In this document: piece by piece, positions 3,435 to 36,790 of the stretch | How the letters are laid out: every line of letters starts with the position of its first letter | Numbering within the stretch: position 1 is the stretch's first letter | Origin: Hericium rajendrae | Lineage: Eukaryota > Basidiomycota > Agaricomycetes > Russulales > Hericiaceae | Direction of reading: 5' to 3' | DNA length: 64,000 bases | Assembly: GCA_033439255.1 (NCBI GenBank) | Contig: CM065890.1 | Span: 868,001-932,000 of the forward strand | Made by a program: the position numbers and the translations under genes | The notes under the pieces: model-generated | The model's database searches: none | What the model was told of the DNA's origin: nothing | The model's input: only the letters and a program-made list of their open reading frames with translations

Positions 3435-3442
3435 GAATGGCT
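3435..3442. repeat. Left target-site duplication GAATGGCT
   Basis: This octamer directly abuts the left TIR and is identical to 14224-14231, which abuts the right TIR. An exact 8-bp match at both predicted ends fixes the element boundaries. Confidence 0.93.
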
Positions 3443-3474
3443 AGGACCCCGGCTTATGAGTACGGAACCCATGT
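3443..3474 (+). repeat. Left terminal inverted repeat (32 bp)
   Basis: This is the reverse complement of 14192-14223 with one mismatch (G versus A at TIR position 22). Confidence 0.95.
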
Positions 3475-4599
3475 CGGGAATCCGGACGGTTTTGGGGATT
3501 TTGGCCTGAACAGCCATGTAGAAATCCCGACAAATCGCTCCCGGGCTGGCGGACACCCATGTACGCTTTCCCGACATTTGACCCGCCCTGCCCATGCAGC
3601 CATGTACAGTATCCTCACGTCACGGACGGGTGCCGCGGCCGCTCGGTCATCGGCATCACCCGCCGTGGTCACGCGTGGCTGTGGGCGCGATGTGACATGA
3701 AGATATCTGTTCGTCATGCAATGAAAAGTGGATTTTGAATAGCGCAGTACGTTGTATATGCGAATTATAGAATATGGACGATGTTTGGCACCTTAGTACG
3801 AGCCGACGCATGAGATATCGCTGACTGTGACTACAGCTGTGACGGGATATGTCACATGATTATCGTCTGAAGCTCCCTCAAGTCGATTTTCTGCTAATGT
3901 CGACACATCTAGCTACTAGAACCTAAGGCTTTCGAAATTTTGACATGGGGGATGTAAGAAACATCATGTTAGATTCAGCAATACTATGAATATACACAAA
4001 TGTTACTCCACTTGATTTAGAAACCCGAAGGCCTGAAGATCTGACCGGGCGAAACAAGACTGAACTTGTGAGACATACCCACCATACCCACCATACCCGC
4101 AACACATCCCTTGCATTGCCTATACCTCCCATATCCTCATCATCTGTAGAGGAGATTCATGGATAATACCACTATCGACCTGGATGCCTTGCTCCCTGTC
4201 TTCGATCCAAAGAAATCATCTGAAAAATGTGAAATCTACATAGCCTGGTGTCAGATTATGCAGTCTATCATATGGCTATATGGTCTACATAGTTCCTTCC
4301 TCAGATATATAGAGCTATGATAGCCATCATAGTTTCCATAGCAGTAGGTACAAGAGATATAGCACTATGTAGACATGAGGGATAGCTATGATTGCTATAT
4401 AACCTCCTAAACATGCTATGAGAGCTATGTGCCCTATGCCTAGACAGATAGACACTTCAAGACATCAAGCTGAATTTTATTATATAGCAGACTAGAGCAC
4501 AAATTGAGTCATCAAGATGAATTTATTGATAGTTCAAATGTAGCTACAGTAGTCACTAGCTACGGTAATTGTAACTCAAGTCCCGGCTGCCAATAATGT

Positions 4600-5700
4600 C
4601 GGCAACAATGCATGTGGAAAGGCCTGGGGCCATCTGTGAAGGCGCGGGCCGTGTGCGAGGGGCGCGGGACGTACGTTAAGGGCGTCCGACGTGTGCGAGG
4701 GGCGCGGGATGTGCGCTAAGGCCGCGGCGACGTGCGCGAGGAGGCGGCGACGTGCGCAAGGAGACGGCGACGTGCGGCGACGTGCGGGACGTCGCGACGC
4801 GTGCGGGACGCGTGCGCGACGGAGCGATGACGTGTGGGAGGGGGCGGCGACGTGCGCGAGGGGGAGGCGATGTGCGCGAGGGGGAGGCGACGTGCGCGAG
4901 GGGGAGGCGACGTGCGCGAGGGGAGGCGACGTGCGCGAGGGGAGGCGACGTGCGCGAGGAGGCGGCGACATGAATGAGGGGTGCGAGACGCGCGAGAGAC
5001 GTGCGCGCGTGGTCCATTGGGTCGTGCAGGGCGGTGTGGGGCTCTGCGCAACGTGCGCGCCGTACGCATGCGCCTGCGGGGAGGCGCAGGCACTCTTGGC
5101 CGTGTGCTGGCACTGCCGTGCGGGGAGGCGCGCGTGTTGACTTGCATGTGCAAGCGGCTGGCGTTGAGGGGCCATGCGCGTGGGTTCGTGCGCTGGCGCT
5201 GCCGTGCGTTGTTGTGCGTCCGTGCACGGGGGAATGGCGGGGCCGTTCATCAGCGTGCGCATGCCGTACGCTGGTCTGCGTACGCTGGCGCGAGCGTGTG
5301 GCGCCGCCCGCTGGCACAGGCGTGTGCTGGCGTTGTCGCGCGGGACCGAGCTCGCGGGCAGACGGGCGCGTGGCTGGCGGCGCAGTATATGAGGCCGCAC
5401 GACGCGTTGTCGAGTCTCGTTGCCCTGGCAACGAGACTCGACGTCTGCTTTGCTGGGTGGGCAGGCTCTTGAGGCCGCGCCGGTGGATGCTGGGAGTGCC
5501 CGCGCGTGGCTGGGGCCGTGCGCGAACCGGTGGAAGTCCCCGCGTGTTGTCGCAGCTGTGTGCGCGGGACGGGAGTGACGTGTGTCGGCGGCGCGGGCGT
5601 GGGTTGTCGACGAGGCGGGGAGTGGGGAAACAGGTGCGCGGAGTGGGGAGCAGGCGCGGAAAGTGCACGAGAGACGACGCGGGGTGTCGAAGGGCATGGA
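4600..5700. repeat. GC-rich minisatellite-like cargo
   Basis: Very GC-rich DNA with degenerate tandem units around GACGTGCGCGAGGGGGAGGC, tightest at 4730-4970, lies within nested insertion 1. The long open frames on both strands (up to 430 codons) are low-complexity Arg/Ala/Pro strings produced by base composition, not genes. A perfect hairpin, GTCGAGTCTCGTTGCC and its complement, lies near 5407-5442. Confidence 0.75.
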
Positions 5701-6207
5701 TGGTATGCCGAAGAGTGTCGAAGAACAAATAAAAACGAGTCTCGCTCGATAACCGAGCGAGATTCGAGATTAGTAGATACAATGAAAATAAAAGCTTTTT
5801 GTACGCACCTTGGGCCCCTCTAACTCCCGTAATATCCTTCCGGCTTCGAAATACAGAGCTACGAGGACTTTGAACGGAGAGGAGACAAGGAGACATGAGG
5901 AAACACGAAGGGGAGAATGACGAGTGAAAGCAACAAGTCGAGCGACGCGCCTTCGGTGCTTCAGCCACGCGAGTTCCAATGTTTTCGAGCTTAGTAAATC
6001 AAATAAACTCGCAACAATTCCGAAAAAAGAAGGCACAGAGCATCTGCTGATAGAATTCGATTGAATGAGCTACATCTCCAACTAAAGTATCATAAGCTAC
6101 TGGGCAGCGAGGCAACGTTACTGAACTCTGGCACTTAGCCTCTGACGCGATGCCCGGGCCGGGCTCCGGCAGCCACATTTGGCGCTCCGCCGGGGAAACC
6201 CGCGCTC

Positions 6208-6306
6208 ACCTATATAACCCTCGCACGACGCGCGTTCTCTCTCTCTCTTCAACTACTACATTCTCCCGACTTCTCTCGCACCTCAAACCTTCTTCCTCAA
6301 TCTTCG
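6208..6306 (+). promoter_or_regulatory. Promoter-like segment with TATA box, pyrimidine-rich start and splice donor
   Basis: CTATATAACC (about 6210) is followed 25-70 bp downstream by a strongly pyrimidine-rich stretch typical of fungal transcription starts (6236-6290), and then by a consensus donor TCGGTAAGTC (6304-6313). This looks like a promoter plus non-coding first exon carried inside nested insertion 1, pointing toward the peptidase reading frame. Whether it is captured host DNA or belongs to the element is not known. Confidence 0.5.
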
Positions 6307-9044
6307 GTAAGTCATACGCCTTTATGTCTACTGTTTTATGCTAATGTTCTTCATGTCTTAGGATATATATTCACGTTTTCTAATAATATCTTTGGTATGT
6401 CTTTATATCTTATCATTGTTGTCTTGTTACTAATTAATCTTCTACTTTATAAATTATTAGCTTTTTGTAATCTTTGTAAGTTTAGTATACTTATCTTGTG
6501 TTACATTTTTATAGTAAGTGTATTGTTTTTATCTTTTTGTAATTAGTAGTAGTATCTTTTGTTTGTAGTAGTATAATAATATAAATATAAATTTGATGCA
6601 TTAAACCAAGCTTCTATTTGTATGATCATTTTATTTGAATCTTGCTATGTGAATGTGAATAAAATTTATAGTTTTAATAGGCTTTATTACTTCAATAGAT
6701 ATACTAGGTCTACATATTGAATATAGAATATATAAGTAACATAAGCCTCATAGCTTTGATAGACACTTATAGCTCTCATAGCTATGCATACTATGGTAGC
6801 TGCATAGTCAGCTATCATAGCTATCATAGTACTTCATAGCATTGCCCCTCAGCTTCATAGCACTATATAGCATCTCTCTTTGGCTATGTGGGCTACAGAG
6901 AAAAGGGCAGTGCTATGGAACTATGAAATCTATGTAGACTTTATAGAGCTATGTACCACTTGTAAGTTTTTCAGATGATGGATAGGCAGAAAAAAGAAAT
7001 ACCCTGCTGCAAACACTCACCGCGAAGTCGATAACACATTGAACCACATTCTGACGCCGCCGCAAGAGGTGCTTGACATACTTCCCTCGCCAGACTTGGC
7101 CATCATCGACTTCCTCCGCCTCAAGTTACCGCTACAGTCGTTTGCAATACGAACGACGAAGACAGACCAATGGTTTAGCACGGACAAGGTGCACAACAAG
7201 TGGACGACTCACTCACTACAGCTCGAGCCCATCCCCTCCGTCGAAACTCTCGCCTCATTGAAAAAGCAGATTGGGCAGGCTTGGTTGGACGGAGCACAGT
7301 CCGTCATCAACTGGAATGTCAACGATGGTGAGACCCGTTTGCCTCTATGGGTGTTGACATTCTGGATGGAGATGAGTGGAGTCATTGAAGGGCAGCGTCA
7401 CTGGCGTACCTCAGAGCGCTGGCTCACGACCGAGGTGAAGATGCCGACTATCAGAGTCTCGATGGACGAAGTGCGGGCATTGCTTTACTCTCTGGGATGG
7501 AAGAGTCCGATCCTTGCCCTTGGCGCATCAACGACGACACTCGAGCTGTCAAAGCTCCTCGGTACAGAATGGATAACCTCAGAGCTCATCGACATGATGA
7601 TGGAGACCCTGGCTTATCATGTTCGCCTCAAGAGGGATGCATCGAACGCCCTTGTCGGCTCTCTTGCTCTGGCCAATGAAATAACCAAAGCAGCACATCA
7701 GCGATCCTACACGGTGAAGGATGCTCCGATATTGCGCCGCTATGAAGCGTTGTTAAACGAGAACGGGCTCACGCTTATATATTTCCCCATCAACGTCAAA
7801 GGGAACCACTGGGTTGCTGTGCGCATCGACTTTGAGGCACGAACGATTGCCTGTGGTGAGTAAACATATCAATGTTTCAATAGATACGTTGCTTACAGTA
7901 ACATTAACAGGGGATTCACTTGATCAACACACCCCAGTCCCATCGACTTTCATCAACCAGTGCCAAAAGTGGTTTCGGGCACGCTTCAACGGGCCATTCA
8001 AGAACCTTGTGAACTCTGTACCTCACGGGCATCAGAAAGACCAAACTTCTTGCGGCATCTGCACAGCGAACACGATCGCTCATGCAGTGTTAGGTGACGC
8101 TCTGTGGGACAAAAGTCGTCGAGAGCTGGAGCGCGCAGAGTGGTTTAGCATGTTGGCACGATCATGCGGGGAGAAGGTGTGTAATGCATATGCATATCCA
8201 TTCATCTATAGGCTTAATCAATATCGTCCAGCGCAATCCTGGAAGATTACAGGAGCACGATGTACCTATCGACCGCGATTTTTTGATTGCCCATCCAAAC
8301 GTCAGTCTGGCGGTGGCCATGCGTGACCCGAACTGCTCGGATCTTGCCTCATTTGTTCAGGAATCACTTGACATTGAAGCAGACGTGCAAGAGTCCATGT
8401 CGTTGGACATATCCCCTGAACCTGCGCTCGATTCGCGCTCGGCGCTTGATTCCTATCATGCTTCGACATCGGGACTCGGAAGTGCATATCGTGACCTGAG
8501 CAGTGCAACTTCTGATGCAGAATCAGGCTTTGAAGACAAGTCTGTGAAGGCTGAGGATGCACTTAGCGATGGAGAAGGCTTGACATGTGGGCTATCAGAT
8601 GCACTGATGACCGAAAGTGACGGCGACACTTTGGATCCTGACGCAATGGCAAGTCTACGCTCCTCACCGGCTTCATTCTCGGTGCCTTTGGGCATGGACG
8701 ACAACGACTCAGTACAACTGCCATCTCCAATCGAAAAAATAACCTACCGAAGCTCCAAAACAACGATGCCGCCAGCTGAGCGTCTCTCGTCGGACTCTTT
8801 GGCAGGCGTATCAGACTCCGTCCAGATCCCACAGAAGCCCGTCCACCCTTTCTTCGCGATGTTCTCCAAAGCGCAAGCGGTTCTGAAATCAAAAGGAAAG
8901 GATAAGCGCAAGAAAGCTGAGAAGAAGAAACCACAAAATGACAAACCTCTCTTTGGTCCTGTCGGTATCAGTCAATCAGCATCTGCATCAAGAGAAAATC
9001 GATGTGCTATTGACAAAGGCACATTCAAAGTCTCGCAAACATGA

Positions 9045-12000
9045 CTCGAGACATTCAAGGACAAGATACGTACCGATGCCAACTTTGGAGACACTGATGC
9101 GATCTTCGACAAGGACAACATCCGGATTGTCCGACACTCAACTTGTGGAGACCCCTTCACCATGAAGGACGCATATGACACTTCTCGCTTCTTCGAACAC
9201 GTCGCAGTTTGTTCAAATGTTCGCTCGAAGCGTGCTCTACCTTTGGATCAGCGTACATTGGATGTGATGGCACTGCCTGACGGCTGGCCAGCACGAAAAG
9301 TTCAACGCACCAATGACAAGTCTATGGCTACCGCTCTCGTACGACCCTGTCCAGGACTCAAGGCACACAATAATGCTAAGATCGAGCAATACCTCTATCG
9401 TCCATCAGCGACGAGTGCCGGAGGCTGCACGGTGAAAGTGATCGCCCAAGAACGGTATAAGAAGCCATTTGCGGATCTCAAAAAATCACAACAGGATGAG
9501 GTTCGTGCCATACAGAAGCATGAACATCGTTGGAAGCTGGATAAGGAGGATATGTGTGTCATGGCGATGGACTGTCTTCACGAAGTGCCCGGAGATCGAG
9601 AGGATGCAGCTGGGAATTGCAAGCCCTGCGAACGATGCATGGCACTGCTCTCGGATCAGCAATTCAGAAACACGATCAACAAGAACGTACCAGAGAGCAA
9701 AAACTTCCGTCATACCAATCATCGCTTCCGCAATACCTTGTTGTCAAAGCTCTTTGCAGAGACGGTAGGGTTGAGCGACTTGATCAAAGAGGTGAGAGAC
9801 GATTTTTGGCGCCTCGAGGCATAGAAGCTGTCATTGACCTAATTATGTAACCAGGATAACAGAAAGACACCGTGGGTTACGTTCGCCGTTGGAGTCTTGC
9901 AGGGTAAATACACAGACAACAAAGTATTCACTGGTCTGGTTGAAGCCATGGTGTCGAAGGTCGACCGCGAGGAGCGTGGTGTTGGCTTGCAGAACTTCAA
10001 GTATGCCCCAGCTTACGACACTTATCTCAGCACCGCACGCATCTTGAGTCCGCGGGTTTATCGTCTCATGTCGGAGCATTTTCAGGCGCGGACTGAGCGC
10101 AGTGTGAGGTGCGTATTCTCATTGCTATCATGTCACCGCAGCTAATACTGATTCAATTCTAGGACAAAAGAGGCCAAGCAGCCCAAGTTTCGCTTGGAGA
10201 TCTGTCCGGAGACCTTCAAGCTCGTGTTGGAGCGCTTGCGATGCCTGAAGTACGATGGCCCTGTTGGCTTGAACTGTGACGAAACAAAATTATTCGAGGA
10301 CTGGCAAATGTACTGGGATGACGACAGAGACTTCTACATGCTGATTGGTGGGGACTGCGGGCCTCTCCTTGTCTGCAATCCAGAGCAGATAGACGAGATC
10401 ATGAAGAATCCAGAGTACAGGAAGGCTGGAAATAAGGCTCCAACCATTTTATTTACATTTACTGAAAATTCTAAAAAAAATGGTAAATAGTATGTAGATA
10501 GTAAATAGATAGTAAATAAACAGTATAAATGGTTGGAGAAGTGTTCAAATTATTTGAGCCTGAGCAAGGCTATATCTCAGCCTTTGCAAGGATGAGCTCA
10601 TTTATTACTAAAAAATTGAGAATTGAGTTTTAATAAATACAAAATAATACAAAACAGCAAAAGGATTATGTGCAAGACAAGCAATAACAGAAAAGTCTTG
10701 GTAGTTTTCCTGCTTTGTGTATCAGAGAAGACTGCTTGTTATCTTTTCAATGACTAAGTAAGCTATCAATATAGCAGATATAAAACTCAGAAGATAAAAA
10801 ATTGAGAAAGTCTATATATTGAAAAGATATGTAGACTATAAGAAATAGAATTGAACAATATAAACATACAGCAAACAAACATCAGATGTTATAATTAGCA
10901 AGAGTATGATGACTCAGAGAATTTTGCTACATTTTAGAATTGAAACTCTTGCAGCTATCTTGCTCCTATTGATAACAAGCACAAGGATATCCATTGGATT
11001 GACCTTATTGTTAGATGTGTCCTACAATGTAAACCATCAATGCTCTTCAGAGTGTTTTCATGTTCTTGAAATAAATATGCTCAAAAAACACTAAATCAGT
11101 CTATATAAACACTAAAATCACAGAGTATAGATGACTTATATATTGGTTCCTGACCATTCTAGCACCTTATTAGCACTAATAACCAATACCCTTTACTCTT
11201 TACTTTACTATATATTTTATGTTTTCAAGGCACCCTGTAAATAAATAGTAAAAAGAAACAGTAAAAACCATTTATACACAGTAAATAAACAAAATAGTTG
11301 GAGCCTTAGCTGGAAAGGTATTTATATGGTGCATCTGTTCGATGCCATAAGCTCATGCGAACTTTTCATTTAATCTAGGTCCGCCTATTTATTTTGCAGG
11401 TGCCAATGCCAAAGGTCACTCCGATCATTGTCGCAGCTGTTCCGGTCAATAGCATGTCAGCTGAAGAGCTACTTCCGTACCTGGAGCAGATTGTCTTTGG
11501 CCTTCTTAATGAGAAAATTCAGTTGGTCTCATATGCATGTGACGGGACGGAAGTCGAACGGTCTTTGCAGCGTTTATTCACCTCTCGAGCAACAAGCACC
11601 ATCACGTACTCTTTTGAACATTCACGCACAGGTTCCCCGCCTCTTGAAATTACTATTCCGGTCTTCCGCGGACAACCCATTGTGATGCTCCAGGACTCGA
11701 AGCATGCTCTCAAGACATTCCGTAACAATCTGTTCTCTGGCGCGCGTCTCTTAGTTCTTGGAAACTTTGTTGCCTTCTATGCCCACATCCGACAGCTCGC
11801 ATTCGAGAAAGGTGGCCCGCTCTATCACCGCGACGTTGAGAAGATTGACCGCCAAGATGACAATGCAGCAAGCCGACTGTTTGCAGCAGAAACGCTTCGC
11901 TACCTTTCTGAAAACCATCCAGACTATATTGGCGAGATCGTCTATCTTTTTGTCTTCGGTGAACTTGTCGATGCGTACCAAAACCGCAGAATCCCACATG

Positions 12001-14023
12001 CCGAACGCATCAAGATGGCTCTGCGTGCTCGCTATTTTATTGAATTCTGGCAGCTATTTCTCGATTCAGCTGGCTATCAGCAGAGCCGATACTTCATATC
12101 CCGAGAAGCTGCTGATATCACACGTTTCCTTATAGACGGTCTTATTGCACTTATACTCGTCCACCGCGATCATATCGACCAACGCTATCCACTTCTGCCA
12201 TGGCTGCATTCAAGCGAGCCTTGCGAGCATGTCTTTGGAGAGTCACGAAGGATTGTCGAAAACTTCACAATGCTTGACTTCTACTACATGGCACCGAAAC
12301 TCATGATCAAGCTGCGTGAAGCAGCTCTTCGTACCCAAGCATCTGACTCGAAGGCACGCGCTAGTGGGTACAATCATACCTATCTCAATGTCGACGGAAT
12401 GGATATCGCCGCATTGGCATCCTTTCCTGATGATGAAGCGGTCAGTGATGCCGCGGGTCAAGCTAAGGAAGAGGCCGAGAGCTTGATGCACCTATTGGGA
12501 GTCACGCCTACTCTCCTCCGCAACAGGATGCCAGTGTCTCGTGCCATCGGTCTTCCAAGCATCAGCAGCTGGTATCATCCTCAAGAGGCTGCTGAATCCA
12601 GTTCGAACATGTCATCTCATGCTCCGGACTTATTTGATGAAGAGTCCGAGTCTGAAAATGGTCTATTCGAAGAGCAGGAACCCAGCACGTCAGAAATCCT
12701 ACGGAAAATCCTAGAGAATGAAGAAGCTGACCTCTGGGGTGACGGGCGTACAACTCATGAAGACGAAGCAATGACCAATCTTAGTTGTGCGGCTATCGCC
12801 CTTGTTGCCGATGAAATGACCGACGTGTCAGTATAGTCCCTCACCGCTTCAGTTGGCAATTTACTCACTCTGCTTTGCATTTATGAACAGAGAGCGGTTA
12901 CCAGAACCTGATAGTCCATTCTTGGAAGAGCTGCATACCGCTGAGTCACAGTACATACATGATGCAATGTCCGTCATGCTTCCAGCTTTAAATCTGCCCG
13001 ATGAACCATCTCGGCCTTTTGGACAAGGCCGTACTACTACGGCAATGCTTGATTTCAATGCGTTGGTGGAGATGCGCCGTCAGCATCAGACAGATTACGC
13101 GGCTAAAAGTGTACGGACTCGTGGATCAGGAGCAGCGGCTACAGAGTCTGAAAGCACCGAAGAGCTGGATGCCAGGTCACAAAAAGAGCTATTGAAAAAG
13201 CAAATCATCGAGCGGTTTCGCGAACAGGGAAGGATCGAACAGGAGCGCGCAATGACTACGGGTAAATACCGCGTCTCACGCTGGACAGAAGGCCCATCTT
13301 CAACGACCACTGGCAACGTGCCGATCGAGGCAGGCAATTCAGCAAACGCGGCTGCTGTCGCAACTGCCGTAGCACGTAGAGTATGTGCTTATCTCAGTTT
13401 TGATGCTAAGACTGCTTAGTTTGACTACTGACCTGTACAAACATAGGCTTTATCACGTCGCAGGGAGATCTTTCAGAAAGCTGGATCACCGCACCTTGAA
13501 GAGCTTGCGACAGCGCGCATTTCAGTAATGCGTCCATTGCGGGTGGATGACTTTGCCTTTGCTTTCACAGAATTTGGTACGATGGTTGCGCAAGGTAAGT
13601 TCACGTTTGTTGTTCCTTTTGATTGATGTAGCCAATGGCTCACGGCGTTGCTATCTTCTAGTGATCACGCTTTACTCGAAGACCGCAGGTAAGAACGGCA
13701 AACATGCCTCGGTCACTGAGGCGACAAACATCGCAGCTGTCTCAAATGTCGCTGTCCAGCTTTTCGAAGAGCTGCTGGGCACGCAATTCACTGCAATCCC
13801 ACATATGATGGTGCCGTGGCAGGCGAAGCGCTTCGCTTTGTTGCCTTCTGAGGCGTTGCTTGCTTTACTTACATTAGGCACACCAGCTTCGCTCGAAGAA
13901 AGGTCTCTAGACCTGAGACCCGAGGACTTCCCGCGCTTCAGAGACTTGCAACGCGGTGAGAAAGCGGTAGGAGAGGCGATGAAGCTCTTTAGAAAGCGGA
14001 AGCCGGCAGAGCAAAGGCTGTAG
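9045..14023 (+). pseudogene. Transposon gene, 3' part: P-like DDE transposase
   Basis: Exons 9045-9791, 9855-10108, 10163-10432 plus 11309-11317, 11379-12826, 12891-13380, 13447-13594 and 13662-14023 give one frame. In order they encode a Cys/His zinc-finger-like segment (HSTCGDPF...FEHVAVC), a Cys-rich linker, LNCDETKLF (about 10265-10295), and an RNase-H-like core. The core has Asp in ACDGTE (11541), Asp in LQDSKHALKTFRNN (11694) and Glu in PCEHVFGESRR (12225). This matches the DxxHxxKxxRNN and ExxF logic of P/THAP9-type transposases. An acidic tail and a conserved C-terminal block (LLGTQFTAIP) follow. The first ATG in this half (9162) lies inside the zinc finger, which argues that translation began further upstream. 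Similar proteins are, from memory, widespread as hypothetical proteins in agaricomycetes. Apart from the nested hAT-like insertion this half reads open throughout. Confidence 0.8.
10433..11308. mobile_element. Nested insertion 2, hAT-like MITE with 8-bp duplication
   Basis: Ends TAAGGCTCCAAC-ATTTT-TTTAC and the inverted complement at 11280-11308 are flanked by GCTGGAAA on both sides (10425-10432 and 11309-11316). The 876-bp interior is AT-rich with no coding capacity. Removing the element with one copy of the octamer rebuilds the exon end GCT GGA AAG followed by a GTATTT splice donor. That splices in frame to the exon at 11379, which is independent support for the exact borders. TIR length and 8-bp duplication fit the hAT superfamily. 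Confidence 0.88.
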
Positions 14024-14191
14024 TACTCTATGGTGGATACACTAGATAGAATACTGGATTTGACCGAACCCATGTATGGATTCCGGACGAAACCTCTCCA
14101 CTCTGGCTGAACCCATGTAGAATCCGGACGGAAATCCGACGCATGGAATGAGGAATCCGGACGGTTTCGAAGGCCGATTTTGGGACTTTCT

Positions 14192-14223
14192 ACATGGGTT
14201 CTGTACTCATAAGCCGGGGTCCT
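14192..14223 (-). repeat. Right terminal inverted repeat (32 bp)
   Basis: It is the inverted partner of 3443-3474 and is followed directly by the second GAATGGCT (14224-14231). Confidence 0.95.
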
Positions 14224-14231
14224 GAATGGCT

Positions 14232-18074: not shown

Positions 18075-19212
18075 TTGAACGTAGACGCGACATTCACATA
18101 TATCCTTTTCCCCGCACTCCTCTCTGCCCTGTCATGTCGCTATCAAATGCTGTCCGATCTCCATCCACTGCAGCCAGTGGGCGCACCAACGAAGTCAAAG
18201 CAAATCATGAGACGGGTCGTCACTGTCGCCAACTCGTCACTAGTGCAGCTGGCGCGCCATTATCGTCATACCGCTCCGAGCTGCAGCTTCTGAAGAGTTT
18301 GCGCTCTTGCTTGGAAGGTGACCGGACATTATCTTTAGATATTGTGGCCATTATATTGACTTTAGCTAGCGCATAGGATGTTATCGAAGCAAGGTATCGT
18401 ACATGAAGATATCAGCCCAGAAACTGTTCATCTCTGTGACAATGCAGGAATGCACGAGGACACCGACGGTGTACTTCTCGACAATGATGATGCTCGACCG
18501 CGGACAGAGTGCACCACGGCAACTCACCTGGGGTCTCCCGACAGGCGAGTAAGTATTCGATTCACAGGGCAAGCAAATAGATCGTACTCATGAAGCACAG
18601 GGTTCGTCGCAGTACATGGCCACGGAACTTCTGTCCTGGGTCAATTATGAACACGCCGCAGTCACTCGGACACCAAGCCACGACGTAGAGTCGTTCGTCT
18701 GGGTGCTGGACTGTGTCATGATGAAGAGGATGCTCCGAACAGTATCCACAGAGCTGGAAGAAGAGACACGTCTGGACCAGATGCAGACCGATGAGGCCGA
18801 AGTCAACCACAGTTTTATTCGCTGGAAGGATCAATTTCTAAAGCAGTCATTCAAGGACATTTTCGGTCAGGAGAAAATAGAACAGATCCTGAATACGCGA
18901 AAATCATTGAAACCCTCCGACTGGTTGGTCGAGACTAACTTTGGACTCACCATCCGTCGAGCCTTCAGTACACCATTGACACTCCTCATATGGACACTCA
19001 TGGGTGACGGCATTTATGCCGAAGTAAAGCGAGTAGCTAAAAGGGAATGGAATTGCAGAGGACTAGGCCTTGATTGGGAAGAACGCTCATTGACGCACAA
19101 TTTCGTCTTGACGGTGTTGGACAGTGCTATCAAGGAAATGCAAGAACTCGAGAACTCTCAGGCTGAGGGTTGCGATGGCAAAGGTGCTCGGACGTTGGAC
19201 ATGCGTACGTAG
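18075..19212 (+). pseudogene. FunK1-type protein kinase, truncated copy A
   Basis: C-terminal half of a fungal FunK1 kinase (PF17667-type). Blocks seen are APLSSYRSELQLLKSLRSCLEG (about 18250-18318), then after an intron AHRMLSKQGIVHEDISPETVHL with DGVLLDNDDA (18372-18510), and ASQYMATELL...HDVESFVWVLDCVMMKRML from about 18606 to a stop at 19212. The N-terminal lobe present in the complete paralogue at 23666 is missing. The catalytic HRD is HED here, so phosphotransfer is doubtful. It shares its upstream sequence (GGCA-GTTATGTCAAA near 18000) with copy B (19275), showing tandem duplication with a unit of about 1.27 kb. It is probably a pseudogene or a decayed copy. Confidence 0.75.
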
Positions 19213-19399
19213 ATTTGGTAGAATGAAGGGCAGCCTTCTGCATGTGAAAGGAGAAAATTAGATCGTGCGCTGGTTTCGGCATGTTATGTCAAATACCTGC
19301 ACCCTCGCCTTGTCCCCGCCCGCAGTCGACACGCTTGTTCCGCGCATTTTTCGCGCCTGTGCCATGATAAAGGCTTATGCTGCCTTGGTACTTACCGAG

Positions 19400-20536
19400 C
19401 TTCCTGCGCTTTTCCCACCTCCCATCATGAAATTCCACGACACCATCCTGGACCCACACTCAGCCGGTGGATATCCCACCCCAGTCGCAGCGAATGACCC
19501 TAAACGGAGACACCATCATTGCAAACTAGTCACGAAGGTAGTGTGCGTACCTTTATCCGCGCATGACTCCGATATGCAACTCCTGATGGGTTTCCGCGCG
19601 TGCCTGGAAGGTGAGAACAGGACCGCCTTGGTGGGACACGAGTCGCGCTGATGCTCGCTAGCGCATATGATTTTGTCGGAGCAAGGCATACTGCATGGCG
19701 ATATCAACGCAGAGAACCTTCTTCTCTGCAATAGTGTGGGAGTGGATGATGATGCCCGCGGCGTGCTTGTCGACAATGATGATGCTCGTAGCGCCATCAC
19801 TTCAACAAAGGAACAGGCCGCTCACCGGCGAGCACTACGAGGGCCTCCTGGAATGTGGGTCAGTGTCCAACTTTCGAGATAAGTATGAACAGTTGCACTC
19901 ACGGTACAAAAGGGCTCGTCGCAGTACATGGCCATGGAAGTCCTGGAGGGCATCGTGCATGACCTCCCGCTCGTTCGAATACCAGGCCACGACGTGGAAT
20001 CGTTCGTCTGGGTGTTGAGCTACGTCTGCATGAAGAAGCTTCTCTGCATTGTATCCAGAGAGCTGCAAGAAGCAGCAGAATACTCGGCAGTGACTGGAAG
20101 TGAACAGGAGGCCCTTGGGGAGAATGCTAAAGTCAATTTCGTTCGCCGGAAGGAGTGGTGCCTGAGACACGCATTTAAGGACGCTTTCAGGCAGGCGAAA
20201 CCGAAGGACATCCTATCGCAACGCATGGCGCTGAAGCCCTTCGACGTTTTCCTGACGAACACGGATCTCCAGCTGAAATTTCGAGGAGCTTTTAGTCCCC
20301 CATTGCAAACTCTCATATTCATGCTTGCTTTTAATGATATGAAATGTAGCATTTTCGCTGAAATGCGGCGCTTGTGTGTTGTGAGATGCAACTACGCTTT
20401 GGAGACGCTTCATAGGGCCGGAGTGGACGGAGTGCGGGAACCTGATCATTTAGGAAAACATGGTTTCATGCATGATTTCCTCTTGCAGGGAATAGACATT
20501 GCTATTAAGGGGATAACAGAAATTAGTAGGAAATAG
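19400..20536 (+). pseudogene. FunK1-type protein kinase, truncated copy B
   Basis: Tandem duplicate of copy A. It contains PLSAHDSDMQLLMGFRACLEG (to about 19611), LSEQGILHGDINAENLLL...GVLVDNDDA (about 19672-19790), and SSQYMAMEVLEGIVHDLP...HDVESFVWVL running to a stop at 20536. HRD is replaced by HGD and the N-terminal half is absent. Exon borders around 19790-19910 are unclear and frames shift between the recognisable blocks, so the copy is called a pseudogene. A further 100-bp scrap of the same unit (AAACGAGACGTCATCATTGCC...) lies at 20695-20790. Confidence 0.75.
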
Positions 20537-20694
20537 AATGGCAGAGGTAACCATTACCCTGCATGCGGAAGACGGAGTAGGCCTACTTATTGTACCCTTC
20601 CTACCTACTATCATACGACTGCAAAACGAAGCCTTGGATTCATCTCCAGCCAGTGACACAGGATGTCCGATATAAGTCGTGATAAACGAGCCTG

Positions 20695-20790
20695 AAACGA
20701 GACGTCATCATTGCCAGCTAGTCATCAAGATAGCTGGGATACCTTAGTCCAATTACCGCGCCGATAGCAATTCCTGAAGGCTTCCACCTA
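20695..20790 (+). pseudogene. FunK1 fragment
   Basis: Short stretch resembling the segment of copy B around 19500-19610 (CATCATTGC-A-CTAGTCA-GA-GTA/TAG). It has no open frame and is a remnant of the tandem array. Confidence 0.5.
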
Positions 20791-20799
20791 TGTCATGAG

Positions 20800-22600
20800 G
20801 CAGAGGCCGCTCCGGACCGCAGAGCTAGAAAAAGGCAAAACGTCAGGAGGCGAATGCCGAACATTCTGTACGGTCGTCGGGAAAAAAGACGTGTATAACC
20901 TTGTCCGCCAGAATAACCCATTCCTGAGACATTCAAGAATGTGTCCTGTCGGGGGCCTGACAACAAGAGGCGCGAGAGGTAATGAAAGCCTTCGATTGTC
21001 TGACGAAGAACAATCTCGTTTCCACCATTTGGACAGAAACTGCTCATGCGCATATATACACTGCATCGTCATATTTCGGTATGATATTTGAATCTAAGGG
21101 CAGCGTGGTCAAAACTGCGGAGCAAAAGCATCCCGAGATGTACGGATACAACATTATCGTATGTGTGCACCTGGGGTTACTCTCATTCTGCCCACAGGTT
21201 GATAGGGACTCCTTGAGATCTTAAGCCGGCTCCGGTTTGAGCTTCCATGACCCTTCCATGCTGACGAGGCTCAGCGCGGACACAGACAGAGCATAACGAG
21301 CGCGTGGTATCTTCCGCCGCCGCATCCTGAAGCGCCGCAGGCCGATGCTTACCGTTGACTCTTGTTCGAGATATCAGCATCAGGCCACAGTTAAATCCTT
21401 CCGGATCATCCCACTCACTAGGCTGGACTCATTCAACGAGCTCCTGCTCGAGGATTTCTGTATCCGGGAGAGGGAGTCCATGTACATCGCACCAGGTATG
21501 TGGTGCATGGTGTTGTAGATGAGCAGAGGGTGCGCCTCCTCAAAAACGAGGGTCTGACACGGGTAGTGTAAACTCTTGTCACTTTCCTTGCTGTTCGTGT
21601 TTCCCTTCAGCATCAGCGCCAAGTCATATCGTGATACCTCTTTTGAAACATACCTAAGCCGCGGTGATGAGAGTGGATACTGGAGATCTGAGAAGGTAAA
21701 GCATCTTGATCTCCGGTGCGGGCACGGAGCTCTTGAGTCTTCGATATTTCAAGGAAACGCCGGCGTCGCATCAATGGTCTGTCAGGTCCTTGCGCAATGT
21801 CAGTATTCATCGTCCTCCACGGCAGTTGATCTGTAGATCACCTTGAGTTGATGTGCACCCAGAGACAGTACTGGCGGCACATAATGTGTTAAGTGGGAGC
21901 ATCGGCGGTAGACATAAATGTCGTTTGTCGGGAGGCCACATCGGCAGATGTACAGAATCGGTTGAGCGGACCAGGAGGAGATTGACGATGAGGAATAACG
22001 GGCAGCTGAGCAGGCTTTTATAACATTCGGGACAAAATCGCGTACCTCATCGTGGAGCCGCTGTCCTGTCTGCTTAGGGACAAACTGGAGCAAGTAAGCT
22101 CTACAACATCAAGGCGAGGGGGAAAGAATGCTTGTTTTGATCAACAAGTCAGCACGTAGCCTGTGTTCGTGACGTGGCATCTCTGCACAGCGCAACGACG
22201 CTGTGGCACGATCCGAGAACAATAGAGCATCTTTTCTCATCATGACAGAAGAGAGGACAGCAAAACAGAGATGATGCCGGGGGATCTTCTTGGATAAGGG
22301 ATTCTCTGTAGACAGAAGATCGACCGGGCACGCGCCCAGTCGAATACGCCATCAAGGATTGTCTGTATGCAAAGCCGACACAGCCAACGTGCAGATGGGC
22401 GAGCTATTGAACGCCAGATTGGGCAAACAAGTCGGACAGCTTGCGTCATACCCAGCGCTGCGGTGCACAACACGAGAAATCTAGGTCGCATGGGAGTTGT
22501 TGTACATCCAAGACAACAGAAAAAAGCTTGCGGCCCAAAACAGATGCCAGGCAGATCTATGGACGTGTGAGCCGCGTTCAATGTGAGCTGCTGGCCAGCA
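20800..22600. other. No gene identified
   Basis: Only short frames (under 115 codons) without recognisable domains occur on either strand. A frame around 21410-21500 (LDSFNELLLEDFCIRERESM) looks protein-like but has no supporting exons or family match. Confidence 0.4.
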
Positions 22601-22609
22601 GGAATGAAG

Positions 22610-22830
22610 GCAGGCCCTGGCTAACATACATCGAATCAATCTGTTCCATCGCAGGGGTCTGGGCAGCCTTGGTAAGCACTTTCAATCGTCTGAATTGGCG
22701 TGCAGTTCGACAGCCACGTGGTGTTCACTGCTTGTATTCGTCTTGTCGGGAGAGAGCTGAACGCAAGAAGTTCCGTCATCCCAAAAAGGCGAATCTCGTA
22801 TTCAAGTGCGCCACAAGCGCGTCGACTTGG
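22610..22830 (+). repeat. Dispersed repeat, copy 2
   Basis: It matches copy 1 at 14990-15240. Its end carries two tandem units of about 24 bp (GGCGCGTCGACTTGGAGCTG, near 22816-22865) that copy 1 lacks. Confidence 0.75.
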
Positions 22831-23611
22831 AGCTGGAGGCGCGTCGACTTGGAGCTGGAGGCGCGTCGGGGGAGTCTGGTAGAAAACTGTAACTCTTCTG
22901 GACAGCAGACTTGAAACGAAAGACTTATTCAGACAGCGTCTCGATTTCGTTAACATTGTGAGAAATCATGCGGACCGTCGTTATCAGTTAGAAGGAGCCT
23001 TTAGGTCCTTGGAGAAAAAAGTTTTTGATGTCGACCACTGCGCTACATGTACAGAATCATACAGCAACAGCTTTCGGATCAATTTGGGCGTTATTGTCCT
23101 CAAATTTGAGACATCTAATACAGTGGAATCCGACAGAGGTCGCCCGATCGCAAACAACACTTGAGTGTACGTAGCGTAGTTTGTGCCTGACTACGTAGTA
23201 CAAACACCGCTCTGTTCCGGAATGGGACCACTGCGGAATACTTAGTAAACCTTCCTGCCTTCCTTCCTCAACCTATCAACAGCACAACTCTGCAACCAAG
23301 GCACTCGAGGCAAGCGCCAGACAGATTCCTTCCCCGAAAAGGCAACTGGCACACTTATTCAAGTCTTCGACACATGCACTTGCGCACCGCTAGTCGGCGA
23401 TAAATCGGCCCAAGACATACTGTCAATACTGCTCTATGCTCATCCACGTGCTATCTGTACTGTCAGAACCTATTGTTCCTGTTCCGTCGTGAGTGTTTCC
23501 CTGTATCACTTACCGGCGTCGAACAATAATGGGATTTCATCAATCTGTCCCATACGTTCGTACTGTTTGTAGTCTAAGCCTTTCTACCTCAAGAAACTTT
23601 GCTTCAGCCAA

Positions 23612-23619
23612 TATAAATA
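23612..23619 (+). promoter_or_regulatory. TATA box of the complete FunK1 gene
   Basis: TATAAATA lies 47 bp before the chosen ATG (23666), which itself sits in a good CACCATGG context. Confidence 0.55.
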
Positions 23620-23665
23620 TGGTGCGTTCAGATTCGTGCTGTTATCAACATACTCCTCATTCACC

Positions 23666-26177
23666 ATGGCTCCTACCAACCCAACCCGCGATGACCACCT
23701 TTCTCCTCGCAAGATAAACTCAATAGGCTCTCACGAGAATTACACCAGTCCCCATAACAGCGTGAGGGACATCCTCTCACTAGAGGCGCAAGGAAGAATT
23801 GTGTTCGATGACGGTGAAGTGTTTAAACGCCTTGGACTCTACGAAATGCCTCAGCAGGACGTGGATGCTATTCTCAAGGTCTTGACCAACGACCCTAGCG
23901 CCATGGGGGCACGGACGGAGCTCAAGGAGTTGGCACAGAAGGCAGACGGTGTCTACGATGCTACCATGTCTGACTCACTGAACGAAGTTGAGCGTTCGCA
24001 CGCCAAGAAGGAATTGGAATTGAACGAGAGAGATATGTACATTCCGCTGGTAAGCCGTCGTCTTAGTTCTTCACTGGAGTATCATGGGCTGACTTGAATC
24101 TGGCTAAGCAAAAATTGTTCGACCACATAACGGGACAGGATAGTGAGCGCTGCATTCAGAGACTGAATAGCACTCTACTCGGCAACGAAGGCTTCGAGTA
24201 CGGCTTTCCCGGAGTTATACCCGACTTCAGCGTCGTCGACCGGAACGGCGTGAAGGATTCGAGATATTGGCGCTTGAGATATGCTTGGATCGAAGTTAAG
24301 GCTTCCGAAAAGGAGACGCCGAAATCACGAGTACCAGGAGATAAGGTCAAACCTATCGTGGCGCAAACCGCCGACTACGCCCGCCTTCATCTATCAACTC
24401 GTCCGTTTCTGCTCTTCACGGTCGGACTGCTCGTCTTTGGTTCCAAATTCTGTGTTGGCATCTACGACAGAGAAGGTGTCACCTTTTCCCCCATCCATGA
24501 TCTGTGGAAGGATCTAGATGTCTTGACCCGTGTCATTTGGAGTCTGTCCAGCTACGATAAATATTCTACAAAATTCCCAATTCACCTGGGTCAAGACCCC
24601 ACGGCAAAAATTGTCAGCGAGTCGGCGAACCCTGTCACGTCGACATCTAGAGGGAAGCTTTTACCTGACTGGCCCGTTTTTATTGTCGACCCCATTGGCC
24701 CGGATCAGCGCTTTTGGCGTACTGAAGGAGGACCAATGTGGGGCTCTCTAACCTTCATTGGACGTGGTGTGATAATACACAAGGTCAGGGCATATAACCC
24801 AGCTACCAAAAAAACGGAAGGACCCGTGATGATCATGAAGACGGCATGGCGCCGCGGTGGGCGAAGCTCGGAGTCGGATATCTACAGAACAATAGAGGGC
24901 CGCAGCACGCCCAAAGCTCTGGCTACCTTGGTTGCCGGCGTTGATGTTCGGATCCGCCATAGTGATGGGAAGCCAGGTCCGTTCATCACGGTTCCGTATC
25001 TGCGAAAGGGCGGATCCTCTGCTGAAATCGGAAGCGATCCCAACACGATGGTCCTCCACCGGTTGATCATCAAAGAAGAGGGCAAGGAGTTATGGTACTA
25101 TGGAACGGAGATACAATTTCTCAAAGCCCTCCGCTCGTGCTTAGAAGGTAAGGAAACCCTCTTCAGAAATATATGTTGAGGATTCTGACACATGCACTCT
25201 TTTAGCGCATAAGACTCTCTCGGAATGCGGAATCTTGCATCGCGACATCAATCCGGGTAACATCCTCCTGCATAGGACGGATAACAGCGACGATGCCGAA
25301 GGGATCCTGCTTGATGTGGAATTTGCTCGAGTCGAAGGAGGGACGGCTGTCAGTACAAAGATACCTGTGAACCCACAGCCGAGATGGAATTCAAACCATA
25401 CGAAAATAATCGGCTATACCGAAGGAACTACGAGAACAAGGACTGTTTTTGACGAGAAGAAAGGGGTCGAGATATCGGTAAGTCCTCAATATCTGATCGC
25501 TAAGACAACGTGAACTCATCGCATGACAGGGATCGTACCAATACATGGCTATGGAGTTGCTAAGCAGCATCCTTGAGGGCCAGCAGATTCCCCAGATACC
25601 CCAACATGATGTCGAGTCATTCGTATGGGTAATATCTTATGTTGCGATGAAGAGGATGCTTCGAACCATATCCATGCAATTGCAAGAGGCGACGCGCAAG
25701 AAAACTTCGAATGAGCAGGAAGCAGCCACAAAGAAGGCAACCCTCGAGGGCATCAGACATCGGAAGACAATCTTGACAGACTTGTTCAAGGCATCTTTCG
25801 GTCAGATGAAACTCAAAGACATCCTGATCGCGCGGAAGGAACAGCTGCCCTTCGATTATCTCAACGAGGACAAGCTCTTGTCTACCGCTGAGGCAACCTT
25901 CAGCCTGCCGATGCGAAAATTCATACGCAATCTTGTGCGTAACATTGAAGTCGAATCTCGGAGATTGAAGGATATCATGGAGATGAAAAACGGCGGGAGG
26001 TTCACAGGCGAAACGCTGAGTCCCGACTTTGAACGTCCAGAACACCATTTGAAGCACGATATCATTCTAAAGTTGATAGACACAACTATTCGGGATCTGC
26101 AACAGGTGGAGGGGACTTACGGCGTTTTCATACCCCCAAACCCGGAGGCTGAAGGATTCAACGACAGATATGACTAG
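23666..26177 (+). CDS. FunK1-type fungal protein kinase, complete
   Basis: Serine/threonine-type kinase fold of the fungus-specific FunK1 family. Four exons (23666-24049, 24109-25147, 25206-25477, 25530-26177) with GT-AG introns give 780 residues. The N-terminal half carries the family blocks GFEYGFPGVIPDF, ARLHLSTRPFLLFTVGLLVFG and CVGIYDREGVTFSP. The kinase core has HRDINPGNILL (catalytic loop) and LLDVEFARV in place of the DFG segment, then GSYQYMAMELL (activation segment end) and HDVESFVWVISYVAMKRML. A C-terminal helical region follows. It is the only member of the local cluster with both halves and an intact HRD, so it is likely the active source of copies A, B and D. Substrates and biological role are unknown. 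Confidence 0.88.
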
Positions 26178-26589
26178 GACGTTGTTCGTATAGAAGGAAG
26201 AGAGGTGTTGCGCTGTATGCGAAGGCAAGGACAAACTTTGGTCCAGCTGGTGGATGATACGGACTGTGATTAGATTGGATTGTACGATAGAGATTCTCAG
26301 CACTGGATGCATTTTACGCTATGTAGCGATCGCGAACGACTTCATCATGGAGATCAACAGGCCTCCCTTTCCAAAGTCGCCAGTACCTGCCACAGAGTAA
26401 GTAATTGGACTGAAACAGCCGTGCGTGCGTCAAAAGGTACACCCATGCCCAATAATTAATGGAGAGCCACGCCACGCAGGTATGTATTATTGCAGTCTGC
26501 TGCCTGAAGTCTGAGCGCTCTTTTCGCACTCTGTCTGCGCATAAGCCCTGATAAAGCATTGAGCTGCCAAGTTAGACGGCTCACAAAGC

Positions 26590-27680
26590 GTAGATACGCC
26601 CTGTCCATGCAGATCCACTACACCGTCCCTGGGCTCACATCCAATATCCCATCGGAGCCGGAAGGACCCTGGACGGAGACGCTATCTCGCGAACTAGTCA
26701 CGAAGATAGCGTGCGTACCTTTGTCCGCATACCACTCCGATATGCTATTCTGAATTATTTCCGCGCGCGCCCGGAAGGTGAGATGCACGACCGTCTACGG
26801 GGAACACTGATTGGGCTGACGCTGGCTAGCGTATAGAATCTCGTTGAAGTACATGCAGCATCTTGCATAGCCATATCAATGCAGGATCGCTTCTCAGTGG
26901 AAGCGCCGAAAAGGATGATGATACCCGCGGTGGCTTGTCGACAATGACGATGCCCATAGCACCATCGCTTGAACGAAAGCACCTATAAGCATTGTGCATG
27001 CTCCTTGTGATGCGGTTCAGCGTCTGATTGCCACGACTAGCAGGGAAATTGTACTCACGATGCAAAAGGGCTCGTCGCAGTATTTGGCGATGGAGGGTTC
27101 TGGAGGGAATCGTGTACGACCACCCGCTCGTTCAAACACCAGGCCACGATGTAGAACCGCTCATCTGGGTGTTGGGCTATGTCTTGATGAAGAGGCTGCT
27201 GCGCGCTGTAGCGAGAGCTAGAAGAAGCAGAAGACCGTCAGCTGCACTTGGAAACCGAACAGCACGCCCTCGGGGCGGATGTCAGGGTCAGCTTCATTCG
27301 TTGGAAGGAAGGACTGCTACTTGGGACGCGCATATACGAACGCTTTCGGGTAGGCGACAACGAAGAATGCGTATGGCGATGAAGCTATTCGATGATTTTC
27401 AGACAAACACGGATCCCTTGCCTACCTTTGGAGCTTTCAATCCCTTCGATATAATCGTACCCAAGCTTGCTTTCGACGATGTGAAGCGCAGTATCTTGCT
27501 GGAACACAGCGTTTTGGGGTTGCGAACTGAAAATATGTGCCGGAAATGGCGCATATAGCCGGGATGGGCGGACCGCCAGGACCTGATCATGTGAAAAAAT
27601 AGTGAGACGCATGATTACTTCTTGCAGGGGATAGACACTGCTATTGGAGGGATGAGAGTGATGCTGAGGGCCATGCAGTT
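26590..27680 (+). pseudogene. FunK1-type protein kinase, decayed copy D
   Basis: Similarity to copy B is visible at 26690-26780 (CTAGTCACGAAGATAGCGTGCGTACC), at 26830-26970 (degenerate catalytic-loop region) and at 27070-27560 (SSQYLAMEG, HDVEPLIWVLGYVLMKRLLRA and a degraded C-terminus). Blocks lie in different frames and the catalytic loop is not readable, so this is a pseudogene. Confidence 0.7.
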
Positions 27681-34683: not shown

Positions 34684-35993
34684 TCAGTAGGACGATGGGT
34701 GGACGAGCAGAGTCTATATAAGATACGTCAGTCTTTCAGTTGCCTGACATCAGAAGAGCGACTTACGCCTCCGTCGATGAGAACAGTCTCGCCGTTGATA
34801 AAGCAGTTGGCGACGAGCATGAGAGCTAGAGAGCCCATGTCCCTGTTTGAACCACCAGTGGGGCCTGCCGGCACTTTGAAGGGGTGCTGCTTGCCGGTGC
34901 CGTGAGCTTGCCCCAGCTCGTCGGTCGACCCTGGTGCCGACATCTGTACATGCAAATAAGTCTCAAATACATACTTCAGATCCGTCGAAACTTATACGCA
35001 CCTCGGTGATGAAAAGGCCTACGGAGATAAGTGAGAATACAGGGGATTCAACGGAACGAATCACTTACCAGGAGCAATGCCGTTCACGCGAATGCCGAGC
35101 GGAAGCAGCTCGTGCGCGAGAGACGATGTCGCGTGGCCAATCGCCGACTTTGAGTACATGTACGGGAACGACCGCCCCGAAGTGTCCGAGTCCTGATCCA
35201 CGCGCCTGCCGTCAGGATTGACACGAGCATCACCCTAGCAGGGCGACGCACCTTCGTCCACCCGTTCATACTGCTCGTCATCACGATCTGCGGGACGAAT
35301 TTATTCGCGAGCTCGCTACTCTTCCACTTCTCCAGCAGCGGCAGGAACGCGAAGGACAGCCAGTATGGCCCGACTGCGTTCGTCGCAAGGCTGTTCGTGA
35401 AGTCGTCCTGCGTGACGGGGTCGAAGTAGCCCTTGATGAACGCCTCGGCGGTAGCATCCTCCGGCTTCTGGTAGGTGCCGACGAGGATACCGGCATTGTT
35501 GAAGAGGACCGTGACGTGCTTTTCGCGCTTGCCGACTTCGTCGGCGAGGCGTTTCGCTTCGGACTGCACAGTGATTAGACTTCGAGCCGTTCCAGTCTGA
35601 GAAAGATAAGTCACCTTCAGTCGGACATCGCCTTCGAGCCCGACGAGCTTCCCGCGTCTCGGATCTTTGGCTGCGGCCTCGCTATACGTCTTCGCCATTC
35701 TATGTATCATTAGGGTTGCACCCGCCATTTACCGGGCATTCTATGCAAGGAGAAGCACATACTTGTCCAGGTCTGCCTGCTTGGGGCCAATGATGTACAC
35801 GGTGGCCCCATTGGCGACCAGCGTTGTGGCGATCATCAGGCCGATCCCCTATACAGGGTACACCGTCAACACGAAATAGAGAGCCAGAACATATTCAGAT
35901 ACGCACAGTTCCTCCGCCAGTCACAACAGCCACCACACCCCTCAAATCAAAGATATTATTCGCAGTCAAGCGATTGAGAACTGCGTCAGCCAT
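34684..35993 (-). CDS. Short-chain dehydrogenase/reductase, copy 1
   Basis: NAD(P)-dependent Rossmann-fold oxidoreductase. The ATG at 35993 opens MADAVLNRLTANNIFDLRG, then VVAVVTGGGT-GIGL (cofactor loop, split by an intron), TVLFNNAGI (NNAG), IVMTSSMNGWTK (catalytic Ser) and FPYMYSKSAIGHA (YxxxK). It ends in LVANCFINGETVLIDGG and, in a last small exon, TLLVHPSSY. Seven or more short exons are used. All catalytic residues are present, so it should be active, with unknown substrate. A close paralogue follows in tandem at 36791-38188. Confidence 0.88.
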
Positions 35994-36056
35994 GGTAATT
36001 CGACTCGGGAAGGGTAGAACTTGATGGATGATGGCTGGGAACAACGGCCGAGCTCC

Positions 36057-36064
36057 TTATATAC
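36057..36064 (-). promoter_or_regulatory. TATA box of SDR copy 1
   Basis: TATATAAG on the minus strand lies about 65 bp before the ATG at 35993. Confidence 0.5.
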
Positions 36065-36079
36065 CACGGTCGCAGGATC

Positions 36080-36780: not shown

Positions 36781-36790
36781 GTTCCGAAAT

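Follow-up and report, generated by a model that had tools for sequence, protein, structure and literature searches.

The segment from position 3435 to position 14231 of the window, the whole 64-kb stretch of DNA analysed here, carries a bounded mobile element that we read, with slightly better than even confidence, as one insertion of a P-like, Ulp1-fused cut-and-paste DNA transposon with a P-like transposase, now broken. The host genome is fungal, probably that of a basidiomycete.

Element boundaries and terminal repeats

The boundaries of the element are genuine, being formed by TIRs flanked by an exact 8-bp target-site duplication, GAATGGCT (Table 1). The left TIR agrees with the reverse complement of the right at 31 of 32 positions, and the pair is also detected as 41 nt at 88%. 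Within the 64-kb window, the 21-bp tip of the TIR has exactly two matches at up to three mismatches (shuffle mean 0.00); no further TIR match at this threshold, and no second copy, is seen there. Both ends additionally carry subterminal repeats, with all five window copies of ACCCATGT and all three of ATCCGGACG located at the two ends of the element, while CCATGTA is less end-specific (6 of 15 copies). These repeats are candidate binding sites that the transposase could possibly recognise.

Table 1. Features of the element and of its predicted gene, in window coordinates
Feature	Position	Strand	Basis
Left target-site duplication GAATGGCT	3435..3442	.	Exact match with 14224-14231
Left TIR, 32 bp	3443..3474	+	31/32 against reverse complement of 14192-14223
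Left subterminal repeats (ACCCATGT, ATCCGGACG, CCATGTA)	3467..3606	.	End-specific motif counts
Probable exon 1 start (MDNTTIDLDALLPVFDPKK)	4159..4216	+	Open frame from ATG 4159; predicted
Probable nested insertion, 2,776 bp, splitting exon 1	4217..6992	.	8-bp repeat AAAGAAAT at 4209-4216 and 6993-7000
Exon 1 remainder, C48 His 7807	6994..7855	+	Open frame; Pfam Peptidase_C48 on joined exons
Exon 2, C48 Asp 7913, Gln 8042, Cys 8051	7911..8176	+	GT-AG introns 7856-7910 and 8177-8231; codons
Exon 3, linker, then Cys/His-rich segments	8232..9791	+	Interrupted by in-frame TGA 9042-9044
Exon 4, preceding the catalytic core	9855..10108	+	
Exon 5, candidate first catalytic D 10278 (LNCDET); holds nested element	10163..11317	+	Role of D putative
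Nested hAT-like insertion, 876 bp, inside exon 5	10433..11308	.	TIRs and own 8-bp duplication
Exon 6, candidate second D 11541, D(2)H 11694-11705, D444-equivalent 11970, E 12225	11400..12826	+	
Exon 7	12891..13380	+	Frame-keeping GT-AG joins; exact choice uncertain
Exon 8	13447..13594	+	GTATGT...ATAG and GTAAGT...CTAG introns; 1 of 121 frame-keeping combinations
Exon 9 with stop codon	13662..14024	+	
Right subterminal repeats	14068..14199	.	Motif counts
Right TIR	14192..14223	-	Pairs with left TIR
Right target-site duplication GAATGGCT	14224..14231	.	Exact match with left

Gene organization and the Ulp1-type protease domain

The predicted gene comprises nine exons, which would encode the Ulp1-type domain and the transposase-like core as a single fused protein. 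The frame opened by the ATG at 4159 is that of KKYPAAN at 6994, across two copies of AAAGAAAT, and the 3′ splice choice of exon 6 is uncertain, with 26 frame-keeping options. The first half of the gene holds a C48 domain, matching the Pfam model Peptidase_C48 (PF02902) at E = 4.2e-8 with 33.7 bits, where the cut-off is 20.7. The match covers profile positions 2–120 of 217, with His and Asp inside it and Cys beyond it, placed by motif only; checking of the codons finds His, Asp, Gln and Cys in that order. A weak PDB lead for the same region is yeast Ulp1 (1euv, E = 0.1). Exon 3, which follows, has no Pfam match above cut-off.

Lesions in the coding region

The TGA within exon 3 is spanned by 17 GT-AG stretches (45–200 bp, multiple of 3). 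None of these has a GTRNG donor, so that an intron removing the stop codon was rejected and mutation is the likelier origin. The same TGA bears on an alternative in which the transposon holds two genes, an Ulp1 gene ending at 9042 and a separate downstream transposase, an arrangement that would fit either reading of the core. The stop codon is real in the present copy, and C48 occurs as an extra protein in some Cryptons (PMC3212892); however, the reading frame is the same on either side of the TGA and the next in-frame ATG lies only at 9162, within a stretch rich in Cys and His, which makes two separate genes the poorer fit, and the lack of a GTRNG donor likewise speaks for a mutation rather than an intron. 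We therefore consider the two-gene arrangement unlikely.

Nested insertions add to the damage. The 876-bp element in exon 5 has 23-nt TIR arms that are 91% complementary, is bordered by an exact 8-bp duplication (GCTGGAAA at 10425–10432 and 11309–11316), and would belong to hAT. The 2,776-bp stretch is a probable insertion into exon 1, with boundaries that are uncertain because its ends are not symmetrical. A working transposase is unlikely to be made from the present copy, since the stop codon and the nested insertions have broken it. The preliminary description had reported exact 8-bp duplications outside 32-bp TIRs and a C48 peptidase triad of His, Asp and Cys, both of which are borne out; its term "complete" suits the ends of the transposon but not the coding part, and the single multi-exon gene it described proves to be interrupted by the TGA, the 876-bp insertion and the probable 2,776-bp insertion, none of which it mentioned.

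Acidic motifs of the transposase-like core

The published P signature consists of a D in β1, a D in β4, [C/D](2)H after β5, and an E (PMC8230255). The same order of D, D, [C/D](2)H and E is found here at 10278, 11541, 11694–11703 and 12225, together with a D at 11970 where DmTNP, the Drosophila P transposase, has the essential D444. Under the P scheme, the D at 10278, one exon upstream of 11541, is a candidate first D, 11541 a candidate second D, 11694 the start of a putative D(2)H motif and 12225 the candidate E. The D-D-E set proposed earlier at 11541, 11694 and 12225 is correct in its codons (D, D and E), but by this scheme 11541 would be the second D and 11694 would fall in the D(2)H motif outside the triad, the first D being at 10278.

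The D(2)H motif, the D444-equivalent and the E align in blocks with P-type proteins. D303 of DmTNP is not aligned with D11541, the best-fitting block placing D303 three residues earlier, and a three-way alignment pairs neither D10278 nor D11541 with D230 and D303, so that the candidate second D rests on order and on context read by eye. Spacings between D, D, D(2)H, D444-equivalent and E are 99/51/92/85 here; the residue numbers of PMC8230255 give 73/36/105/87 for DmTNP and 70/40/105/94 for hTHAP9. The D1–D2 spacing of 99 lies outside 70–87, and both it and the D2–D(2)H spacing exceed those of P; from D(2)H to E there are 177 residues here compared with 192 and 199 in P and THAP9 (numbers from PMC8230255). 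Eight GTP-contact residues have been defined in DmTNP (PMC7776569), and in our own alignment of these (n = 8) the core keeps D444, replaces D528 by E and differs at five, with K385 unplaced. The contexts DxxHxxKxxRN and EHxFGxxR occur in none of the 123 other ORFs. An AlphaFold single-sequence model of 11400–12533, built without relatives, has a pLDDT of 39.9.

Similarity of the core to known transposases

In BLASTP the core aligns collinearly with human THAP9 at 26.9 bits, a score matched by 1 of 1,000 core shuffles and 0 of 1,000 THAP9 shuffles, while the reversed core gives 17.3 bits; collinearity extends through the insertion between D(2)H and E. Additionally, a four-block chain with blocks from DmTNP and THAP9, picked after the THAP9 alignment had been seen, scores 75.5, where shuffles average 27.3, and is equalled by none of 3,000 shuffles and none of 482 ORF chunks. 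BLASTP against DmTNP gives 21.2 bits, a score that 31 of 1,000 shuffles reach, and the alignment is not collinear with the motifs. When the blocks come from DmTNP only, equally good chains arise in 211 of 2,000 shuffles, in 2 of 123 ORFs and in 18 of 313 chunks. Nine other settings gave between 5 and 228 equally good shuffles per 1,000, and in some of them the top-scoring chain does not run through the proposed residues.

Profile methods place the core in no family. Against Pfam it has nothing above cut-off, and the TNP-like RNase H and GBD models give no match at E ≤ 10; the positive controls, both P-type (DmTNP and THAP9), do match the TNP-like models. Likewise at E ≤ 10, no match is obtained by phmmer against PDB, by the KDZ transposase domain PF18758 (a model present in Pfam) or by the hAT transposase models. 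Comparison by hhalign with a two-sequence P alignment returns a probability of 0.1%, and two-sequence P HMMs score 0.1 bits (E = 0.014) and −0.5 bits, the latter exceeded by at least 5 of 1,000 shuffles. The THAP model, which matched in its control, finds no THAP domain in the parts of the element scanned. The P-like core of the preliminary description, then, finds support in the motif order and the THAP9 alignment but none in Pfam, PDB or the profile comparisons, and the DmTNP BLASTP score is unremarkable; its joining of Ulp1 to a transposase in a bounded transposon holds for the Ulp1 domain and a transposase-like core, not for P membership by profiles.

The element could instead belong to a different superfamily that makes 8-bp duplications, either KDZ or hAT, and have acquired Ulp1, its P-like motifs being common to hAT and P-type enzymes or coincidental, and the non-significant P comparisons (DmTNP-only blocks, hhalign, two-sequence HMMs) are in keeping with this. 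Two points speak against such an origin: the KDZ and hAT models of Pfam yield nothing at E ≤ 10, though PF18758 exists and a missing match counts equally against P, and there are the motifs EHxFGxxR and DxxHxxKxxRN, which we take to be nearer to DmTNP and THAP9 than to those of hAT and KDZ. Zisupton/Dileera (KDZ) and hAT do also make 8-bp duplications (PMC12730594), and we regard this origin as somewhat unlikely. A new superfamily outside P, hAT and KDZ, whose RNase-H-type core would be its own and whose insertion would be unrelated, would agree with a core that no family model recognises above cut-off, with the longer D1–D2 and D2–D(2)H spacings and with the absence of most GTP contacts by our own alignment, but it sits poorly with the THAP9 alignment, collinear through the insertion, and with the four-block test, and appears quite unlikely.

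Comparison with known elements and searches for relatives

The P element has an 8-bp duplication and ~31-bp TIRs with internal repeats in 2.9 kb (PMC7776569). The present element resembles P and THAP9 in its 8-bp duplication and in its TIRs with subterminal repeats, both features also of other superfamilies, and further in candidate residues that run D, D, [C/D](2)H, E (the second D not aligned with D303), an insertion comparable in length, the D444-equivalent and an EHxFG as in DmTNP. It differs in having no THAP domain in the scanned parts, no Pfam TNP-like match and few GTP contacts, in its N-terminal Ulp1 and fungal window, and in its size of 10.8 kb, which falls to about 7.1 kb once both insertions are taken out. 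KDZ elements are associated with Ulp1. Fungal KDZ (Kyakuja-Dileera-Zisupton) elements share the 8-bp duplications, whereas the element here has no KDZ Pfam match; the paper that gives these duplications has no occurrence of "ulp" (PMC12730594). A C48 domain within a mobile element is likewise found in Mutator-like elements, CACTA, Ginger1 and Cryptons, which have other types of transposase or recombinase. Specifically, C48 is fused to the transposase in Ginger1, where it is C-terminal rather than N-terminal as here (PMC2836005), and occurs together with Tnp2 in CACTA (PMC2528002).

Viral contigs contained no relative by 11400–12833, 9855–10106, two peptide patterns, the DmTNP and THAP9 alignment or the TIR, and none was found in the genome contigs collection or, by tblastn, among plasmids and phages. 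The 34 loci retrieved by peptide pattern gave nothing better than E = 0.3, and the one plasmid match, also at that value and annotated as an MBL-fold hydrolase, was rejected as chance. Among the literature matches listed, covering titles and abstract starts with most subscription papers and Repbase outside, there was neither a fungal P-type transposon nor an Ulp1 fusion with a P-type enzyme.

Proposed mechanism and significance

In the favoured reading as a P-like, Ulp1-fused transposon, the transposase would act much as P-element transposase does, as a DDE enzyme of RNase H fold whose final E is separated from D(2)H by an insertion. It would bind the 32-bp TIRs and the subterminal repeats, excise the element and reinsert it through cuts staggered by 8 bp. 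The Ulp1-type (C48) cysteine protease at the N-terminus, presumably encoded in the same reading frame, may act near the transposition complex by stripping SUMO, or a modifier like it, from host proteins or the transposase itself; the stop codon and nested insertions would later have inactivated the present copy. More tentatively, and at a little below even confidence, the element may represent a fungal P-type lineage whose transposase kept D(2)H, D444 and EHxFG, has neither a THAP domain nor most of the GTP contacts, and is joined to an Ulp1-type deSUMOylase countering SUMO-dependent silencing or controlling the transposition complex. If the relation to P is true, P-type transposition would be present in fungi, and the GTP-dependent P design is perhaps not universal within the group. 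Whether a transposase-fused SUMO protease has a role in escaping silencing or managing DNA repair becomes a testable question, one already raised for Ginger1 (PMC2836005).

Terminal organization of the transposon

The transposon is a DNA insertion whose terminal inverted repeats (TIRs), identical at 31 of 32 positions, lie directly inside an exact 8-bp duplication, as the preliminary description had claimed. The TIR tip has two matches in the 64-kb window at up to three mismatches (shuffle mean 0.00). Directly inside the ends, ACCCATGT occurs five times and ATCCGGACG three times, with no copies elsewhere in the 64 kb, while CCATGTA is less end-specific (6 of 15 window copies at the ends). This layout is that of a cut-and-paste element with putative subterminal binding sites. 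Searches of viral, prokaryote, phage and plasmid collections returned no relatives, as one would expect of an element from a fungus. The host is judged to be fungal from a PF17667 fungal protein kinase match elsewhere in the window (E=5.6e-14) and from the short GT-AG introns of the transposon gene, and is probably a basidiomycete.

Features of the transposon and of the surrounding window
Feature	Position	Detail
DNA transposon insertion	3443-14223	10,781 bp
C48 His	7807	
C48 Asp	7913	
C48 Gln	8042	
C48 Cys	8051	
Exon 3	8232-9791	single frame, broken by TGA 9042
Candidate first D	10278	LNCDET
Candidate second D	11541	ACDGT
Candidate D(2)H	11694-11705	DSKH, in DSKHALKTFRNN
Candidate D in insertion, cf. 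D444	11970	LVDAYQNR
Candidate E	12225	CEHVFGESRR
Probable nested insertion	4217-6992	2,776 bp
Imperfect inverted arms in it	about 4269-4399 vs 6768-6953	
GC-rich tandem array in it	4650-4969	
TATA-like box in it	near 6209	by eye
Nested hAT-like, non-autonomous-looking element	10433-11308	876 bp, inside exon 5 (transposase exon)
Diverged repeats	18365-27645	73-82% identity
ORF above PF17667 cut-off	24067-25176	
Diverged direct duplication	35065-38163	35065-35968 vs 37253-38163
Likely Helitron	40994-46919	minus strand
Inverted repeats	51139-55150	52168-53430 vs 53734-54996, 99.8%
Nested palindrome	51302-52167	

The Ulp1-type peptidase half

Open frames and short GT-AG introns (54-82 bp) outline a gene of about nine exons, with 3' splice choices that are non-unique. 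By sequence, its first half belongs to Peptidase_C48 (Pfam E=4.2e-8, profile positions 2-120 of 217), and the His, Asp and Cys of the peptidase described earlier are all present; a PDB search points no more than weakly to yeast Ulp1 (1euv, E=0.1). Because the first ATG past TGA 9042 lies only at 9162, one protein fusing the Ulp1 half to the transposase-like core is the better reading, though not a proven one. Ulp1 domains are already described in Mutator, CACTA, Ginger1 and Crypton transposons (PMC3212892, PMC2528002, PMC2836005); no fusion to a P-type core was seen among the titles and abstract openings surveyed in an open-licence literature collection.

Possible relationship of the core to P transposases

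BLASTP of the core against human THAP9, a P-type relative (Pfam finds THAP, P-element HTH and the three TNP-like domains in the sequence used), gives a single alignment of 129 columns that starts at D(2)H and runs through the insertion, at 26.9 bits, a score matched by 1 of 1,000 core shuffles and 0 of 1,000 THAP9 shuffles. Additionally, a four-block chain combining THAP9 with the Drosophila P-element transposase (DmTNP; sequence in agreement with 6p5a_A) around D339, A404-F408, D444 and E531, its blocks picked after the THAP9 alignment, scores 75.5, whereas shuffles average 27.3; none of 3,000 shuffles and none of 482 other-ORF chunks does as well. Both results favor the P-like core proposed previously, but the remaining tests do not. 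The BLASTP score against DmTNP is equalled by 31 of 1,000 shuffles, and DmTNP-only block chains by 211 of 2,000 shuffles as well as by 18 of 313 chunks (5 to 228 of 1,000 shuffles across nine settings). Nothing convincing emerges from Pfam, P-family models included, from phmmer against the PDB, from hhalign against a P alignment, or from two-sequence HMMs. The transposon would work most like P; since the P family models tested do not recognize it, it is not classed as a P superfamily member. A core structure model built without relatives has a pLDDT of 39.9, too low to be informative.

The P signature comprises D in beta1, D in beta4, [C/D](2)H after beta5 and E in alpha4; another essential residue, D444, lies in the insertion domain (PMC8230255). 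The candidate motifs are spaced by 99, 51, 92 and 85 residues, against 73, 36, 105 and 87 by DmTNP residue numbers (PMC8230255). Of the D-D-E set previously placed at 11541, 11694 and 12225, the E fits this scheme, but 11541 would be the second D and 11694 the D(2)H. The second D is the weak point of the assignment: D303 of DmTNP lands three residues before it in the best-fitting block, and in the three-way alignment the first two D residues fail to line up with D230 and D303. Among the eight DmTNP residues contacting GTP (PMC7776569), our alignment finds one identical, one conservative, five different and one unplaced.

Lesions, a nested element and a probable insertion

The element was described as complete, which holds for its ends but not for its gene, which is broken in this copy by TGA 9042, a nested element and probably a further insertion. 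The 876-bp element carries 23-nt TIRs (91% complementary, starting TAAGGCTCCAAC) and its own 8-bp duplication, GCTGGAAA. The 2,776-bp stretch is flanked by two AAAGAAAT copies, with the reading frames on either side being MDNTTIDLDALLPVFDPKK and KKYPAANTHREVDN; because its ends are asymmetrical, it is only probably an insertion splitting exon 1.

Other features of the window

A likely Helitron, divided among several frames, is seen in minus-strand ORFs with matches to Helitron_like_N (E=2.2e-36), PIF1 helicase (4e-23) and DUF6570 (2.2e-39). The large near-perfect inverted repeats could be either an element that arrived recently or an artefact of assembly. The diverged repeats carry fungal-type protein kinase matches, one ORF lying above the PF17667 cut-off and two below it, and the direct duplication retains 73-79% identity across several stretches.
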